DNA from: Candidatus Lindowiibacteriota bacterium | GTDB lineage: Bacteria > Lindowbacteria > 2-12-FULL-62-27 | Direction: 5' to 3' | Length of the DNA stretch: 9,116 bases | NCBI GenBank assembly: GCA_023249255.1 | Contig: JAHFCY010000131.1 | Span: forward strand, 1 to 9,116 | Shown here: in pieces, positions 1 to 9,116 of the stretch | How the letters are laid out: every line of letters begins with the position of its first letter | How positions within the stretch are numbered: position 1 is the first letter of the stretch | Program-made: the position numbers and the translations under genes | The notes under the pieces: generated by a model | The model's database searches: none | Seen by the model: the letters and a program-made list of their open reading frames with translations, nothing else | Told to the model about the DNA's origin: nothing

Positions 1-276
1 CTGCGCGTCGGGCGTTCCGTCGTTGTCGTCGTCGAGGTCCTTCGCATCAGGCGTTCCGTCGTTGTCGTCGTCGAGATCGGCGATGTCGATAGTTCCGTCG
101 CCGTCGTCGTCCGACAGGAGAATATTCTCAACCGCGTCAGGCATTCCATCGTTATTGTCGTCCAGGTCCTTGTCGTCAGGCGTTCCGTCGTTGTCGTCGT
201 CCTTGTCTTTCGCGTCGGGTACTCCGTCGTTGTCGTCGTCAAGGTCTTTGATGTCCGGCGTCCCATCGTGGTCGGC
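1..276 (-). repeat. 39-bp tandem coding repeats (TSP3 Asp-rich units)
   Basis: The 3' part of the visible TSP3 gene is built of 39-bp units encoding 13 residues (DDNDGxPDxKDxD). The two copies nearest the left edge are almost identical in DNA: the 25-bp segment beginning at 12 recurs exactly 39 bp later at 51. Units further right are more diverged, and one degenerate stretch (residues 145-165, VENILLSDDDGDGTIDIADL) interrupts the phase. The pattern suggests recent unit duplication toward the C-terminal end. The array continues off the window. Confidence 0.8.
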
Positions 277-570
277 ATCGGCGTTGGCCGCGGCCTCAAG
301 GGCGTTGGGGATTCCGTCGCCGTCAGCGTCGGGCAGAGCCGGCGGAGCTTCCGGCGCTGCTGCCTCCGGTGCGGCCGCCTCATCCGCCGCGTGGGCCGCC
401 ATCGTCTGAAGGAGCGGCCGGATCATCCACATCCTGTTGAATCCGATAACGGTGAGATAGAGCGCCAGGAAAATTACCAGCGGAATTCGTCCCCGCACGT
501 TATTGAATCTTGTGCGTCTTCGCATGAGTTTCAGGACCTGAATTTCTTCAGGTGTTCGCAAATACGACAT
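1..570 (-). CDS. Membrane-anchored thrombospondin type 3 repeat protein (C-terminus beyond window)
   Basis: This frame runs 190 codons from ATG at 570 to the left edge without a stop, so the C-terminus is missing. Residues 1-28 are basic and probably cytoplasmic. Residues 29-50 (IPLVIFLALYLTVIGF and following) form one hydrophobic segment, probably an uncleaved anchor. Residues 57-80 are an Ala/Pro/Glu-rich linker. From residue 81 the protein is made of Asp-rich repeats of the DxDxDG type: DADGDGIPN at 81-89, then 13-residue units such as DDNDGTPDAKDLD around 112, 125, 138, 168 and 181. In TSP3 and related repeats these acidic loops bind calcium, so an exported, calcium-stiffened stalk or surface protein is likely; any domain carried beyond it is not visible. 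An in-frame TAA lies six codons upstream, so the only alternative start is GTG at 582. A weak purine-rich site (AAGGGG at 582-587, or GGTGG at 579-583) precedes the ATG. The gene has its own leader and promoter, separate from the two-component operon. Function beyond calcium binding is unknown. Confidence 0.85.
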   Translation of the reverse strand, partial: MSYLRTPEEIQVLKLMRRRTRFNNVRGRIPLVIFLALYLTVIGFNRMWMIRPLLQTMAAHAADEAAAPEAAAPEAPPALPDADGDGIPNALEAAANADADHDGTPDIKDLDDDNDGVPDAKDKDDDNDGTPDDKDLDDNNDGMPDAVENILLSDDDGDGTIDIADLDDDNDGTPDAKDLDDDNDGTPDAQ

Positions 571-596
571 GTTGACAGCCACCCCTTAGTTGGTTT

Positions 597-2721: not shown

Positions 2722-5700
2722 TTATTCCTCGGCCCAGACGCCGTCCCAGTCCTTGGGCAGGGTATGCTTGCGAAGTCCGGCAATTCGTTCAATGTACTTC
2801 ATGGCGGGGCCGTCGTTGGGATCCATTTCGAGAATGTGCTTCATGGCGGCCTCCGCGGCGTCCCAGTCCTGCTTCAGGTAGTGCGCGCGGGCTTTATCGA
2901 ACTCTTCCCGGACCTTGTACTTGATTTCGGGCACCACGCAGTGGTCGGCGATGAATTCGTGATACTCTTGGGAACGGTTCTGGACGCGCTCGATGAACTG
3001 GGCCATCTCGGCGTGTATCTGCGTCAGCAATCCTGCGGCCTTGGCCTGCGCTTCCGCCACGCCCACCCCCGCGCCTTCTCCTTCCGCCCGAATCAACTGC
3101 TTCAGATGGTCGGCAAGGTCCACGGCCACACGATCATCGGGCTTCGGAAATATCGTGCGCTTGATGTAGCACTCGACGCGTTTTTGCGCGGTGTCGACAG
3201 CCGCAAGCAGGAACTCGTACCGGTCGACCGGGACACTGCCGGACAGCACGATCGTGTTGAACTGTTCCTCCTTAAGGCGATGTTTCCACCCGTAGAGAAT
3301 TTTCAGAGCGTCATCCGTGGCCGAATCACGCTGTTTGGCGATCCCCTCAATCTCGGCCTGCCCGGCCTTTGTGAAGGCCTTGCCGGCAAAGAGATCTTTG
3401 TGGCTCTCGACATCCTTCTGCAGATTCTCGAGGTCGGTCCGCAGGATGGACACCGCCGCGATGTCGATCTGTTTCATGTAGTCGACGGCGAGCGGGGCGA
3501 GTTTTTCGAACTGCGCGCGAAAGTCGCGGTAGAACGGGCCGTCGGGAAGTTTTTTCTGGTCCCAGTAGTACAGGTATCCGAGGATTTTTTCGGGCAATAT
3601 CTTTCTCCAACCCTCGACGATGAGAGGCGGGATGGGCCGGCCGGTCCAGTATTCGACAAACTTGTCGCGTTTCCAGGCCATGAGTTCATAGACGCCGGTG
3701 GCGTGGCCGGCGTGACCCATCTTGACCGTGTCGAGGTGGCGGACGTCGACGCGGGTTTTCGATTTTTCAAGCGTCAGGGGGCCGATCGCGATCCAGGTTT
3801 CGTAGAGTTTGTTGATCGGCTCAAGTTCCTCGGCGATGGTGACGGCCTCGCCCATGGCGGTGTACTGGAGACGTTTTTCGGAACCCATGTTGCCGGCAAC
3901 GACGACGCCGGTGTTGACGCCCATGCGCGCGGTGATTTTGACGCCGTACTTGATGAGCAGGAGCCGCTGGATGACGGAGAGTTCCTCCTGCTGAAGAAGC
4001 GCCGAAAAACAGCCTTTCCAGGCATGATCGGGATCGGGCACGGGCACGCCGTAATCGGCCTTGATGGCGTCGCCCTCGTATTTGTCGCAGTATCCGCCGA
4101 ACGTCATGATGATGTTGCTCATGGGCGTCAGGTAGATATTGAGGATGTTGGCCAGCTCCTGCGCCGTGACGCCTTCGGAAATCGTCGTGAATCCGGAGAC
4201 GTCGGAGGAAAACATGGTGGCTTCGTATTTTTCTCCGCCCAGGCCCAGCTTGCCGGGATTGGCTTCCAACATTTTCAAAACGTCCGGCGAAACCATCGCG
4301 CCGAATAATCCGCGGACCTTTTTGCGCTCCCGCGCCTCCTCGACGTAACGGTACAGATTGGCGGCGACGTAACAGAGAACCACCGCCGCCAGCGGGGCCA
4401 CCAGCGCCACGATGATGCCGCCAGTGATGAACAGGGTCCACGCGAGGCCCGCATGGACGGCCGTGGTCGCAAGGACAACCAAAAATCCCATGATCGGCCT
4501 GAAATGCAGGACCAGCCACGTGACGGCCAGCGCGTAGAGGAAAATGTAGAGGTATTGCATGAATGGAGACTGCGGCCGGATGAATTTGCCGGTGACGATG
4601 GTGTTATAGACGCTCGGCACCATCGCGAACATCGGAAATCGGGCCTGATACGGCGTCGGATTGTAGGCGTTCAGGCCGGTGGCGGTCAGGCCGACGAATA
4701 CGGTCTTGCCGGCAAGATCCAGAGGAGAGAACCAGACGTTCTCGCCGCTGATGCCGATCGGAATCGGCTCCAGAAAATACAGCGGCTGAACTTCGTGAAT
4801 CCGGCCCGTCTTGAAAAAGAATTTGGTCTGATTGAATCCGTCCCGGTAGTAGTCGGTATCCGGAATGTCGAGGCTGATCTCCACCGCCCTGTAGTCCGGA
4901 TCTTGACCCGATTTGAGAGTCTCCGCCGTCCGCTTGTTGATGGCAAGCTGATTCCACCAGTTCTGCTGTTCCGGCGTGTCCGCGCCCTCCTGCTGGCCGG
5001 TCTGCGCCAGATACTGCTGATACGCCGCGCCCCGGTCGATGAAGTAATCCATCATCCAGACGAGCACGGTCTGGCGCGCGATGATCGAGGCGTCCTCGGA
5101 AGTCACGAGACGCTGGCTTGCGAGAAACTCCGCCATCTTCTGCATGACGTCCTGGGGATTGTCGGCGCCGAGCTGGAATTGCCGCAGATAAACTTTGGCG
5201 AGCTGATACGCGTAGCAGTAGGTGATGAGATTGTACGGAAGAGGCTTGAATGAGTTTTGATAGGTGCCGACCCAGTTGATGATCATGAATCCGTTTTGAT
5301 CGATCGGAATCCGGACGGTTCGGACCGAACCGGGAATGTCGATGTACCGTCCGGGAACGATTTTGATTTCGGAGAGCGGACAGCCAAGTTCCCTGGCGGC
5401 CATCGACAGCGCGACGCTCGGATAGACGCGGCCGTCGTACCAGGCGATGAGAGGCGTGCGGCGGACGATGCCGTCAACGTCCTGAACAATCCGGCTGAAT
5501 CCGTCGCCGGCACAGCGTGCGGACAGGCCGGTCGTGACGGGGATAATGTCGACGGCGCGCATAAGCGACAGCGGTTTGGCCCACGGCAGGGAAAACGAAT
5601 CCAGCGACGCGATGGCGTCGCGTTTGCTCTGGGGGAAAATGGTCTTGTTGGACGCGGCCAGAGACTCGAGCGCGCGTTCATCCTCGGCCTGCTTGCCCTC

Positions 5701-6198
5701 GGGGATGGTGAATCCCATTCCGATAAACGTGTTCGGAAAACGATCGACGGCGCGGAGAAACCGATTGTTGAAATCCGGGATCAGGCCTTCGACGGCCGCC
5801 GGATCGGCCTGGCCGCCGGGTTGGGCGAACTGATTGAGACCCATGGCGATCTGCCGAGCCTGATCTTTCTGAATGGTGACCGGCCCGAGGTCGTCAAAGT
5901 ACGGTTCGACGAAGGCGACCTGATGGCCGCCGTAGAGGCGAAGCAATTCCGCGACGACCGCGTGCCGATCCCACGTCCACGGCCAGCGGCCCATCTGGTC
6001 GATGGCGTTGTCATCGATCACAATGTCGTAGATGCCGGTGTCCGAAACCGGCGCCGGCCGCTCGACGTAGCGCAGGTCCGTCAGGAAGAGTTCATTTTTT
6101 TCAAGCACGCCGGCCCACGCAAGCAGGGATACGAGGACGGCGACGGCAAGGCCGATGGCGGCCGTTTTGGTCAGGTCGATTTTGAGTTTGGCGTCCAT
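2722..6198 (-). CDS. CHASE2 class III cyclase with metal-site aspartates but no transition-state Asn/Arg (C1-like)
   Basis: A 1158-residue membrane cyclase. One N-terminal helix (about 12-32) is followed by an extracellular CHASE2 sensor (about 35-545) with the family signature IDDNAIDQMGRWPW at 61-74 and LAGKTVFVG near its end. Three membrane helices follow (about 548-567, 570-590, 593-616), then a linker (RKKVRGLFGAMVSPDVL), the cyclase domain (about 655-840) and an extension of about 318 residues. The metal aspartates D666 (MFSSDVSGFT) and D710 (DKYEGD) are 44 residues apart, as in the family. The class IIIb substrate residues K706 and T780 are present. The usual GDAVNxAxR motif reads GEAVTIAEE: the catalytic Asn is T787 and the Arg is E791. 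As a homodimer it should be very weak or inactive. The C-terminus (about 1095-1140) is TPR-like and ends in KDWDGVWAEE. The ATG at 6198 is 4 bp after the upstream cyclase stop, so coupled translation is likely. No frameshift is seen; the substitutions are in otherwise conserved context. Confidence 0.93.
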   Translation of the reverse strand: MDAKLKIDLTKTAAIGLAVAVLVSLLAWAGVLEKNELFLTDLRYVERPAPVSDTGIYDIVIDDNAIDQMGRWPWTWDRHAVVAELLRLYGGHQVAFVEPYFDDLGPVTIQKDQARQIAMGLNQFAQPGGQADPAAVEGLIPDFNNRFLRAVDRFPNTFIGMGFTIPEGKQAEDERALESLAASNKTIFPQSKRDAIASLDSFSLPWAKPLSLMRAVDIIPVTTGLSARCAGDGFSRIVQDVDGIVRRTPLIAWYDGRVYPSVALSMAARELGCPLSEIKIVPGRYIDIPGSVRTVRIPIDQNGFMIINWVGTYQNSFKPLPYNLITYCYAYQLAKVYLRQFQLGADNPQDVMQKMAEFLASQRLVTSEDASIIARQTVLVWMMDYFIDRGAAYQQYLAQTGQQEGADTPEQQNWWNQLAINKRTAETLKSGQDPDYRAVEISLDIPDTDYYRDGFNQTKFFFKTGRIHEVQPLYFLEPIPIGISGENVWFSPLDLAGKTVFVGLTATGLNAYNPTPYQARFPMFAMVPSVYNTIVTGKFIRPQSPFMQYLYIFLYALAVTWLVLHFRPIMGFLVVLATTAVHAGLAWTLFITGGIIVALVAPLAAVVLCYVAANLYRYVEEARERKKVRGLFGAMVSPDVLKMLEANPGKLGLGGEKYEATMFSSDVSGFTTISEGVTAQELANILNIYLTPMSNIIMTFGGYCDKYEGDAIKADYGVPVPDPDHAWKGCFSALLQQEELSVIQRLLLIKYGVKITARMGVNTGVVVAGNMGSEKRLQYTAMGEAVTIAEELEPINKLYETWIAIGPLTLEKSKTRVDVRHLDTVKMGHAGHATGVYELMAWKRDKFVEYWTGRPIPPLIVEGWRKILPEKILGYLYYWDQKKLPDGPFYRDFRAQFEKLAPLAVDYMKQIDIAAVSILRTDLENLQKDVESHKDLFAGKAFTKAGQAEIEGIAKQRDSATDDALKILYGWKHRLKEEQFNTIVLSGSVPVDRYEFLLAAVDTAQKRVECYIKRTIFPKPDDRVAVDLADHLKQLIRAEGEGAGVGVAEAQAKAAGLLTQIHAEMAQFIERVQNRSQEYHEFIADHCVVPEIKYKVREEFDKARAHYLKQDWDAAEAAMKHILEMDPNDGPAMKYIERIAGLRKHTLPKDWDGVWAEE

Positions 6199-6202
6199 GC
6201 GA

Positions 6203-9116
6203 TTATTTCTTCTTCTGCACGAACTCGCCCTGCCACTTTTCGCCAGGCGGTTCAGTTTTGTAGCCTTCGATGCGTTCCAGATAAGCTTTCGACGGGCCGT
6301 CGGTGGGAACGAGATCGAGGACGGCGCGGAATTTCTGAATCGAGTCGTCCCACTTGCGCTCCCAGTGCAGATTCACGCCGGCCTCAAACAGTTCCCGGGC
6401 CTTCTTCTGCGTCGGGGTCGTGTCCCCGACAAGAGCCATCATTTCGTGGTACGGCTTGGGATCAGCGGCGAGCGTCTGATGAAACGCGTTGACGGCGGCA
6501 TGATACGCCTGACGTTTGGCGTCGATGTCCTCGGCGGAGACGGGCGCAAGACTTGTTTCGGTTGCGGCGGTTTTCTCGATCGCCTCGTGCTGATTGACCA
6601 GAAATCGCTCGACGACCGATTCGGTGTGCGCCTGAAACGACAGGCGGGGCTTGAGCGAATGGAGTTTGTTGACAAGCGTGTCGGCGCGTCCCAGTGCGCC
6701 CGAATACGCGGCCAGGGCAAGAGGGTCGGCGCCGGGCGCGATCTTGTGCTCCTGCAGAGCGGCCCGGAGCGTCTCGGCCGAATGAATCCAGTGGTCCAAA
6801 ATGGCGTCCCACGATCGTCCGGCGCCTCCCGCGCCGTTGACGGATTTGGACAGAATCTGTCCGGCGTCTGCGCGCAGGGCGGTCAATTCCTCGTGATACT
6901 TCTGGATTTCAAACCGCCCGTCGAGTTTGACCATTTCCTCGGCGGCCGGAAGTTGGGATTCGAAAAACTCGCGGATCTGTTTGACGATGGCATGGTCGAC
7001 GTCCTTTTCCTTCCGGCTCCAGAACTCATGATATCCGAATATTTTTTCGGCCGGGCATTTGGTCCAGCGGGTGATCAGGGACGACGGCAGGGGGTCGCCG
7101 CCTTTGAGTTTGAGATAGGCGTCAGGCTTCCAGCCCTGGACTTCGTAGATGGTGATCGGAATGGTCTTGCCTTTTGCGAGAAGTTTGTCGAGCAGGCGAA
7201 GTTCGACGACGTCGCGCAGGATCGGTTCAGAGGCCTCGCCGGTGATGATCCGCGTGTCGTAGATGCCGTTGGCGGGGCGAAACCGGGCGGACATGTTGAC
7301 GGCGTCGCCCATGACGGTGTACTGCATCTTTTTTTCGGAACCCATGTTTCCGGCGGAGACGTAGCCGGAATTGACGCCCATCGCGACGTGAACGTCGGCG
7401 CCGTAGTGGGCCTTGATGTAAAACTGGAACGGCTCGATGTCCTGCTGTTGTTCGATGCTGGAGAAGGCGCATTTCCAGGCGTGGCCGGGATCGTCGAGCG
7501 GGACGCCGAAATCGGCCATGATGACGTGGCCCTCGTATTTGTCGATGTATCCGCCGTAGTCCATGATGATTTCGCTCGTGGGCGTGAGATAAATGCTCAA
7601 GACGCCGACCAGATCGTCGGGCGCGACTCCGGCGCTGACTTTGCCGAATTTTTCGATCGCCGAGAACATCATGGTCGCGGGTTTGCGCACGCCGGAGAGG
7701 GAAAACCGTTCCGGATGGTCCTCCATGAGTTTGAGAACAGCCGGCGAGACCATGGCCGAAAAGATTGCGCGGACTCGGCCCTTTTCCTTCTGGGCCTCCA
7801 TGAAATGATAGACGACGATGGCGATGAACGTCAACTGGCCGGTCAGCACCGGCTCAAACCAGTAAATCCACTGGCCGTGCTCGATGAACGCCCATACAAC
7901 GGCGCCGCTGAAGAGGAGCGTCAGAAGTTCGCAGATGAGAAATCCGATGAACGGCGACGTCAGAGCGCCGAACAGGGCCGTCAGGACGGCGGTCCCGATA
8001 TCAAGGGGGTACCGCCAGAATTTTTGGGGATAGTGGAGGAACTTTCGGACGAGGATCGTATTGAGCGCGTTGGAGTGCAGGCCGACCATCGCGTAGACGT
8101 TCTGGTACGGCATGGGATTGAGGTCGATCGTGCCGACGCCGGTCAAGCCGATCATGAAAATCTTGTTTTCGATGTCCAGCGGCGAGAAATCTTTCCTCGC
8201 GCCGTTCCACTGGACCTGACGCGTCGGCGGGAAAAAGTAGGGCGCGACGTCGGCCAGACGATTTTTCGATTTGAACCAGGCGGCGTTTCGGTCGATCTCG
8301 GCCTTCCACGCGGGATCGAACGCCGCCAGAGCGGGATCGGCCTGCGCGTGCGCGTCGGTGTCGGCGGCCCGAATGCCGGCGAATACGGCGGTCAGCGTGT
8401 CCCCGGCGGCATCGGACTTTGCGGCCGGCGGCAGGGCCGCGAGAATTTCGGCGCGCGACTTGCCGGCGCGAATGAGCGGGGTGGCGACGTGGGCCAGGGC
8501 GATCTCGGACGCGATGCGCCGGGATTGGTCCTCCGTGACCATTCCCTCCTCATCGATGGAATTGACGATCTCCCGTCGCAGGGCATCGTAGGAGGAGGGT
8601 TCGGACGGATACGTCCGCGCGAGATTTTTCGCCGTGTAGTAGGCGTAATATTCCGAAACATAGCGGAACGGCAGATGCAGCATCACGTCGTCGAATCGTC
8701 CGGCCCAGTTTGTGAGCATCTGGGCATTTTCGTTGATCGGAATGCGGATGGTTTCGCGTTGAGTCTCGCCCGGCACGAGGGCGTTTGGAATCTCGACGTC
8801 CTCGCCGGGAACGACGCGCCACGTGTTGAGCGGCGCGTCCAGAATTTTCGAGAGCATGGTGCACGCGATCGAAGGATACATTTTTCCGTCATAGTACATG
8901 CAGATCGGATAGAGCCGGACGGTCTGGTCGAGATCGTGAACGATCTGGGCGTATCCGGCGCCCGCTGACGCGCGCGTCAGCCCCGATAGAGGCGGCGTGA
9001 TGTCGACCATTTTGAATACGCTTTTCTTCAGTTCCGGCGTCGGCTCGAGCGTGTAGGGATCCAGCGCCTCGATGGCCCCCTGTTTTTTCTGGTATTCCTC
9101 CCCCTTCTTGTACTCA
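6203..9116 (-). CDS. CHASE2 class III cyclase with transition-state Asn/Arg but no metal aspartates (C2-like; N-terminus beyond window)
   Basis: The frame is open to the right edge (35 more codons before the Met at 9010), and those codons continue the homology to the neighbouring cyclase, so the true start lies outside; about 970 residues are visible and roughly 220 are missing. The visible order is: rest of CHASE2 (9116 to about 8040), three membrane helices (about 8010-7800), linker KGRVRAIFSAMVSPAVL, cyclase domain (about 7690-7130) and an extension of about 308 residues ending in a TPR-like segment (WDDSIQKFRAVLDLVPTDGPS). In the cyclase domain the first metal Asp is Ala (FSAIEKF, codon 7658-7660) and the second is His (DKYEGH, codon 7526-7528), again 44 codons apart. 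Substrate Lys (7538-7540) and Thr (7316-7318) remain. GDAVNMSAR is intact, with Asn at 7295-7297 and Arg at 7283-7285. Alone it cannot bind the catalytic metals in the known way. It probably supplies the other half of the site for the next gene's product. Confidence 0.92.
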   Translation of the reverse strand, partial: EYKKGEEYQKKQGAIEALDPYTLEPTPELKKSVFKMVDITPPLSGLTRASAGAGYAQIVHDLDQTVRLYPICMYYDGKMYPSIACTMLSKILDAPLNTWRVVPGEDVEIPNALVPGETQRETIRIPINENAQMLTNWAGRFDDVMLHLPFRYVSEYYAYYTAKNLARTYPSEPSSYDALRREIVNSIDEEGMVTEDQSRRIASEIALAHVATPLIRAGKSRAEILAALPPAAKSDAAGDTLTAVFAGIRAADTDAHAQADPALAAFDPAWKAEIDRNAAWFKSKNRLADVAPYFFPPTRQVQWNGARKDFSPLDIENKIFMIGLTGVGTIDLNPMPYQNVYAMVGLHSNALNTILVRKFLHYPQKFWRYPLDIGTAVLTALFGALTSPFIGFLICELLTLLFSGAVVWAFIEHGQWIYWFEPVLTGQLTFIAIVVYHFMEAQKEKGRVRAIFSAMVSPAVLKLMEDHPERFSLSGVRKPATMMFSAIEKFGKVSAGVAPDDLVGVLSIYLTPTSEIIMDYGGYIDKYEGHVIMADFGVPLDDPGHAWKCAFSSIEQQQDIEPFQFYIKAHYGADVHVAMGVNSGYVSAGNMGSEKKMQYTVMGDAVNMSARFRPANGIYDTRIITGEASEPILRDVVELRLLDKLLAKGKTIPITIYEVQGWKPDAYLKLKGGDPLPSSLITRWTKCPAEKIFGYHEFWSRKEKDVDHAIVKQIREFFESQLPAAEEMVKLDGRFEIQKYHEELTALRADAGQILSKSVNGAGGAGRSWDAILDHWIHSAETLRAALQEHKIAPGADPLALAAYSGALGRADTLVNKLHSLKPRLSFQAHTESVVERFLVNQHEAIEKTAATETSLAPVSAEDIDAKRQAYHAAVNAFHQTLAADPKPYHEMMALVGDTTPTQKKARELFEAGVNLHWERKWDDSIQKFRAVLDLVPTDGPSKAYLERIEGYKTEPPGEKWQGEFVQKKK

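Follow-up and report, generated by a model that had tools for sequence, protein, structure and literature searches.

Adjacent CHASE2 receptor genes with complementary catalytic half-sites predict heterodimeric class III adenylyl cyclases in bacteria

The window analysed here is the whole 9,116-nucleotide stretch (9116 bases) of contig JAHFCY010000131.1 from a Candidatus Lindowiibacteriota bacterium, contig 100 of the source assembly, and it carries two adjacent cyclase genes, both on the minus strand. The downstream gene (2722..6198, minus strand) is an open reading frame of 1158 aa for a CHASE2 receptor with a cyclase domain that holds the metal half of a catalytic site, and is referred to below as C1-like. 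The upstream gene (6203..9115, minus strand; 970 aa), referred to as C2-like, encodes a CHASE2 receptor whose cyclase domain holds the purine and transition-state half. Its 5' end is missing, cut at the contig edge, and the residue numbers of its protein were counted from the window end. The two genes had been described in the initial annotation as lying 4 bp apart, which was borne out by the gap at 6199..6202 (minus strand). In the other pairs described below the gap measured 2-143 bp, always with both genes on one strand and in one order.

From the phmmer and Pfam ranges, the cyclase domain was located at 3664..4242 (minus strand; about residues 653-845) in the downstream protein and at 7133..7699 (minus strand; about residues 473-661 of the part inside the window) in the upstream protein. 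CHASE2 (PF05226) was detected in both chains, with 90.9 bits (1.3e-25) downstream and 50.6 bits (2.5e-13) upstream at a Pfam cut-off of 26.3. Guanylate_cyc (PF00211) was likewise detected in both, with 42.0 bits (1e-10) downstream and 41.1 bits (1.8e-10) upstream at a cut-off of 21.9. The identity between the two proteins was only about 30%, so the two sensors could read different inputs.

A C-terminal extension of about 330 aa is conserved in both chains of the family to which the window's pair belongs (family I; window 2722-3660 and 6203-7130), and is helical with a TPR-like end. When the window's C1-like cyclase domain was modelled together with this extension using AlphaFold (AF2), with eight sequences only, the cyclase part was poor and the helical extension of the downstream protein (about 330 aa) was confident. 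A Foldseek search of the PDB with the extension model gave nothing at E<=0.001.

Downstream of the cyclase pair and likewise on the minus strand, 735-2497 encodes a NarL-type histidine kinase and a LuxR-type response regulator. Neither adjoined the pair in the other family I loci that were read, and by inspection the neighbours outside the pair were not conserved within family I. The protein at 1-582 (minus strand), which runs off the contig end, combines a hydrophobic N-terminal segment with numerous Asp-rich DxDxDG (thrombospondin type 3-like) repeats, and gave no Pfam match at 1e-3. Long antisense open reading frames (e.g. 6155-8968, plus strand), which lie opposite the cyclase frames in G+C-rich DNA, were dismissed as genes.

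Both metal-binding aspartates are kept in the downstream protein, Asp666 as metal Asp 1 (4201..4203, minus strand) and Asp710 as metal Asp 2 (4069..4071, minus strand), and both positions are D in 19/19 C1-like relatives. The transition-state Asn is replaced by Thr787 (3838..3840, minus strand), a position at which the C1-like relatives have T, A, D, E or I and never N, and the transition-state Arg is replaced by Glu791 (3826..3828, minus strand), where they have E, H or D and never R. In the upstream protein, Ala486 (7658..7660, minus strand) stands for metal Asp 1, with A, S, W, M or L and never D in C2-like relatives, and His530 (7526..7528, minus strand) stands for metal Asp 2, a His in 7/7 of family I. 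The transition-state residues Asn607 (7295..7297, minus strand) and Arg611 (7283..7285, minus strand) are kept here, as N and R in 19/19 C2-like relatives.

The purine-site Lys and Thr are present in both chains (K706 and T780 downstream, K526 and T600 upstream). The upstream chain would offer Lys526 (7538..7540, minus strand) for purine recognition in the predicted active site, and its purine-recognition Thr600 (7316..7318, minus strand) is of the class IIIb type; Lys/Thr at the purine site points to ATP as the substrate. The catalytic string reads DKDT-T-E downstream and AKHT-N-R upstream, and a complete one-chain set (D, K, D, T/D, N, R) is found in neither protein. This division of residues between the chains, with spacings of 44 and 77 residues in both, had been claimed beforehand. 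When the codon positions were computed anew they matched exactly, and the two spacings were recovered in both proteins. A phosphate-binding Lys close to the domain end (Lys1065 of mammalian C2) is a further requirement of class III enzymes. Lys650 of the GK loop (7166..7168, minus strand), the equivalent of the triphosphate-binding Lys supplied by mammalian C2, is kept upstream and absent downstream.

Since each gene supplies only half of the catalytic machinery, activity is to be expected only from the two proteins together. From the sequences, we consider it highly probable that the two products form an obligate heterodimer in which one site is active and the other dead, carried on two different CHASE2 receptors. 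The genes would have originated by tandem duplication of a CHASE2 receptor adenylyl cyclase of ordinary type, after which the copies divided the catalytic residues, and the products would pair as an asymmetric membrane heterodimer. At the active interface site, where cAMP would be made, the downstream C1-like chain would contribute both metal Asp, and all of Lys, Thr, Asn, Arg and the GK-loop Lys would belong to the upstream C2-like chain. The other interface site, lacking metal ligands, Asn, Arg and GK Lys, would be dead. Two-metal catalysis at the dimer interface is established class III enzymology (PMC8815786), and combined with the division of residues it allows exactly one complete site per pair. 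Neither homodimer should work, so that cAMP output would need both chains and could depend on two CHASE2 sensors. Rv1625c carrying D300A (metal) and Rv1625c carrying R376A (Arg) were active when co-expressed, in chimeric and full-length form (PMC4821796), which shows that a bacterial class III enzyme can be complemented in this way. In the window's genome, 25 cyclic-nucleotide-binding domain matches were found, which makes a cAMP reader plausible.

Relatives were collected by a protein search of 98 genomes and by alignment searches of further genomes. All 19 adjacent pairs were complementary and encoded on the same strand, with the metal-less C2-like gene always upstream. The retained half was invariant, with D, D and K in 19/19 C1-like chains and K, T, N and R in 19/19 C2-like chains, and the lost-half positions varied among the 19 pairs. 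In the comparison set of unpaired relatives, all six residues were kept in 57/57 and none was degenerate (0/57). The division in 19/19 related pairs versus 0/57 unpaired relatives is therefore beyond chance. The initial annotation had proposed a search for adjacent pairs in other genomes and had held that randomly varying losses would speak against a heterodimer; in the search that was run, the losses segregated between partners in 19/19.

The GK-loop Lys had not been used in the initial annotation and served as a held-out test, since the heterodimer model requires it to segregate with Asn and Arg. GK was found in 19/19 C2-like chains and in 0/18 assessable C1-like chains (Lys kept in all of the former and lost in 18/18 of the latter), and the motif was also present in the single relatives shown. 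These counts bear on another reading, in which catalysis is left to a homodimer of the downstream protein, active with its atypical residues in place of Asn and Arg, and the upstream protein, as a dead receptor, does no more than regulate or titrate it. Such a reading is compatible with the metals, Lys and Thr that are all kept in the downstream protein, and a non-complementary adjacent pair does exist in G026. However, a mere regulator would have no need to retain Asn, Arg, Lys, Thr and the GK Lys, as it does in 19/19 cases alongside loss of the metal ligands. The downstream protein lacks Asn, Arg and the GK Lys wherever they could be assessed, and the pattern was repeated over what appear to be three independent origins. 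We regard a dead regulator beside an active homodimer as improbable. In G026 (L190 2293-6838) the upstream adjacent gene is defective in both halves and its downstream neighbour keeps D, D, N and R, a contrast which shows that non-complementary loss is detected where it exists.

The 19 pairs fall into three families. Family I consists of seven pairs, the window's, those of G001 and G002 from the same family as the window's genome, those of G069 and G098, which are both sampled genomes of a second phylum-level group, and those of G135 and G271, both of a third. The gaps were 4, 2, 3, 7, 3, 27 and 23 bp, and the order was always C2-like then C1-like. The C2-like chains of family I have A, S, A, W, A, M and M at metal position 1 and H throughout at position 2, with Lys, Thr, Asn and Arg retained in all. 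Its C1-like chains all have both Asp and the Lys, with Asn changed to T or A and Arg to E throughout. Family II was found in G122, G258 and G384 and then in 7/7 genomes of that phylum-level group. In its C1-like chains D/D is retained, Asn is replaced by D or E and Arg by H, and its C2-like chains have M or L and then A, S or H at the metal positions, with Asn and Arg kept.

Family III pairs occur in one large phylum (G019, G424, G167, G413 and G486). In their C1-like chains Asn has become I or T and Arg has become E or D, and the metal positions of the C2-like chains hold S or A followed by E or D. In the C2-like chains of G413 and G486 (2/19) metal position 1 alone is lost, and the loss of metal binding is partial because the second Asp is still present. 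In the alignment, all C1-like chains of the three families have Glu in place of the residue just before the lost Arg position. In three genomes the family III pairs lie directly downstream of glgB (L107 896-3124, L170 8151-10364 and L171 8414-9319); the adjacency to this glycogen branching enzyme gene suggests a connection to glycogen metabolism.

When 385 genomes were scanned with a degenerate DNA pattern for the C1-type change (x-E-[EDHQ]-L for A/S-R-L), it matched in 7, each time at a known pair, a count that is a lower bound because some codon choices escape the pattern. The reversed-pattern control gave zero matches in the 385 genomes. In 392 genomes near G019, the DNA pattern DK[YF]xGH gave 4 sites, approximately the chance expectation, none of them in a detectable cyclase ORF. 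Apart from a contig identical to G002:C16 (L041), a protein scan of contigs yielded one short CHASE2 match, which was unrelated.

For the phylogeny, the six catalytic columns, two neighbouring columns and the GK loop were removed, and 55 domains were placed in a maximum-likelihood tree. Within each family the C1-like and C2-like clades were sisters, with UFBoot values of 100 (family I), 98 (family II) and 96 (family III). Complete single cyclases branched between the families, L048, L050 and L102 by family I and L174 and L149 by family III, and six state changes were required on the tree. In AU tests, a single clade of all pair members was rejected (p 1.9e-34), as was a single clade of all C1-like chains (p 4.8e-32). 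The tree and these tests indicate that the pairs arose independently, at least three times in bacteria, from complete single cyclases. The identical gene order in all three families and the Glu before the lost Arg position in all C1-like chains could instead reflect one old split, in which case the heterodimer evolved once and later gene conversion produced the similarity between C1-like and C2-like chains within each family. Such a history is unlikely, as complete single cyclases interleave the families with high support, one clade was rejected, and conversion would need to have spared the catalytic residues every time.

Within the window's family (G000, G001 and G002) the cyclase domains were 78-85% identical versus 56-64% for the part before them, with a cyclase-domain omega (NG86) of 0.11-0.24. 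In families II and III omega was 0-0.05 where computable (NG86; some dS values saturated). Both cyclase domains are under purifying selection and the genes are not decaying. A family III pair, the two frames of which are joined by one in-frame TAA, was folded as a read-through chain (AF2), and both domains gave good cyclase folds, the C1-like half with Z 27.1 over 185 residues at 1.6 A and the C2-like half with Z 24.6 over 188 residues at 2.1 A. The fold matches included the soluble guanylyl cyclase structures 3uvj and 4ni2. The mutual placement of the two domains in this model was not comparable to that in a cyclase dimer, the alignment to AC5 covering 359 residues at 17 A rmsd. It could be argued that both chains are dead pseudo-cyclases and that the receptor pair signals otherwise, for example via the C-terminal extension of about 330 aa, which is large, helical and conserved in family I and for which no relative of known structure was detected. 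Yet a dead pair has no reason to preserve exactly one full catalytic set, and families II and III, without this extension or with another C-terminus, show the same division. Signalling by two dead chains is thus very improbable.

The predicted dead site of family I has an invariant Glu (7/7; window 3826-3828) and an invariant His (7/7; window 7526-7528). The two residues occupy homologous, facing positions, and Lys and Thr/Ser are kept. It is tempting to speculate that a regulatory ligand is bound there. In the fullest form of the proposal, which we put forward tentatively and hold to be possible rather than likely, the pairs would be repeatedly evolved bacterial two-receptor cyclases needing both chains, perhaps both signals, and the family I dead site would be a regulatory ligand site lined by His530 and Glu791, with Lys706 and Thr780 in place, as an analogue of the forskolin site.

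According to a 2022 review, bacterial class III cyclases homodimerise, and the C1/C2 duplication is placed in early eukaryotes (PMC9552081). In the literature searched, which comprised papers available without subscription, no natural bacterial split-site heterodimer was found. The pairs would show C1/C2-like specialisation in bacteria, unfused, at least three times, which makes divided sites a recurrent outcome of cyclase duplication and the pairs natural models of the step before fusion. With them, the contribution of a dead site and of two different sensors to a single enzyme becomes open to experiment. If the prediction is true, both chains, and perhaps both signals, are needed for cAMP in repeatedly evolved two-receptor cyclases.

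A close parallel in design is with the mammalian transmembrane adenylyl cyclases (tmAC), in which the metal Asp pair likewise comes from one domain and the purine Lys, Asn, Arg and triphosphate Lys from the other, and in which one active site is accompanied by one degenerate site. The losses are of the same kind, mammalian C1 having Thr for Asn and His for Arg, and mammalian C2 having Ser for metal Asp. In contrast to tmAC, the bacterial pair consists of separate ORFs with CHASE2 rather than one polypeptide with two 6-TM anchors, and it is of the class IIIb Lys/Thr type. The best PDB matches of both proteins were Cya2/CyaB (phmmer, 1e-18 to 1e-26), and tmAC type V was matched at 1e-5 by the downstream protein and not at all by the upstream protein. 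Judged by its residues (19/19, with the GK Lys in all assessable cases), the pair is predicted to work like C1/C2, and it is not of tmAC lineage.

Soluble guanylyl cyclase alpha/beta also consists of two separate homologous chains with one active and one degenerate class III site, as is predicted for the bacterial pairs. That enzyme is eukaryotic, has a heme/NO sensor and uses GTP, whereas the pairs are bacterial with membrane CHASE2 sensors and ATP-type residues. The chytrid rhodopsin-cyclase NeoR/RGC, a class III receptor cyclase that is an obligate heterodimer, combines two different sensors (PMC8815786). None of the catalytic residues is missing from its cyclase domains, and the need for two chains stems from the sensor or linker (PMC8815786); in the bacterial pair the catalytic residues themselves are divided. 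The homodimeric CyaB, Cya2, CyaC and Rv1625c and the single-chain CHASE2 cyclases share the same fold (Z 24-27), and the sensor type of the latter is common to the bacterial pairs. Unlike the pairs, these homodimeric bacterial enzymes have all residues in one chain and two equal sites, and homodimeric or single-chain bacterial cyclases of this kind are evidently the ancestors of the pairs.
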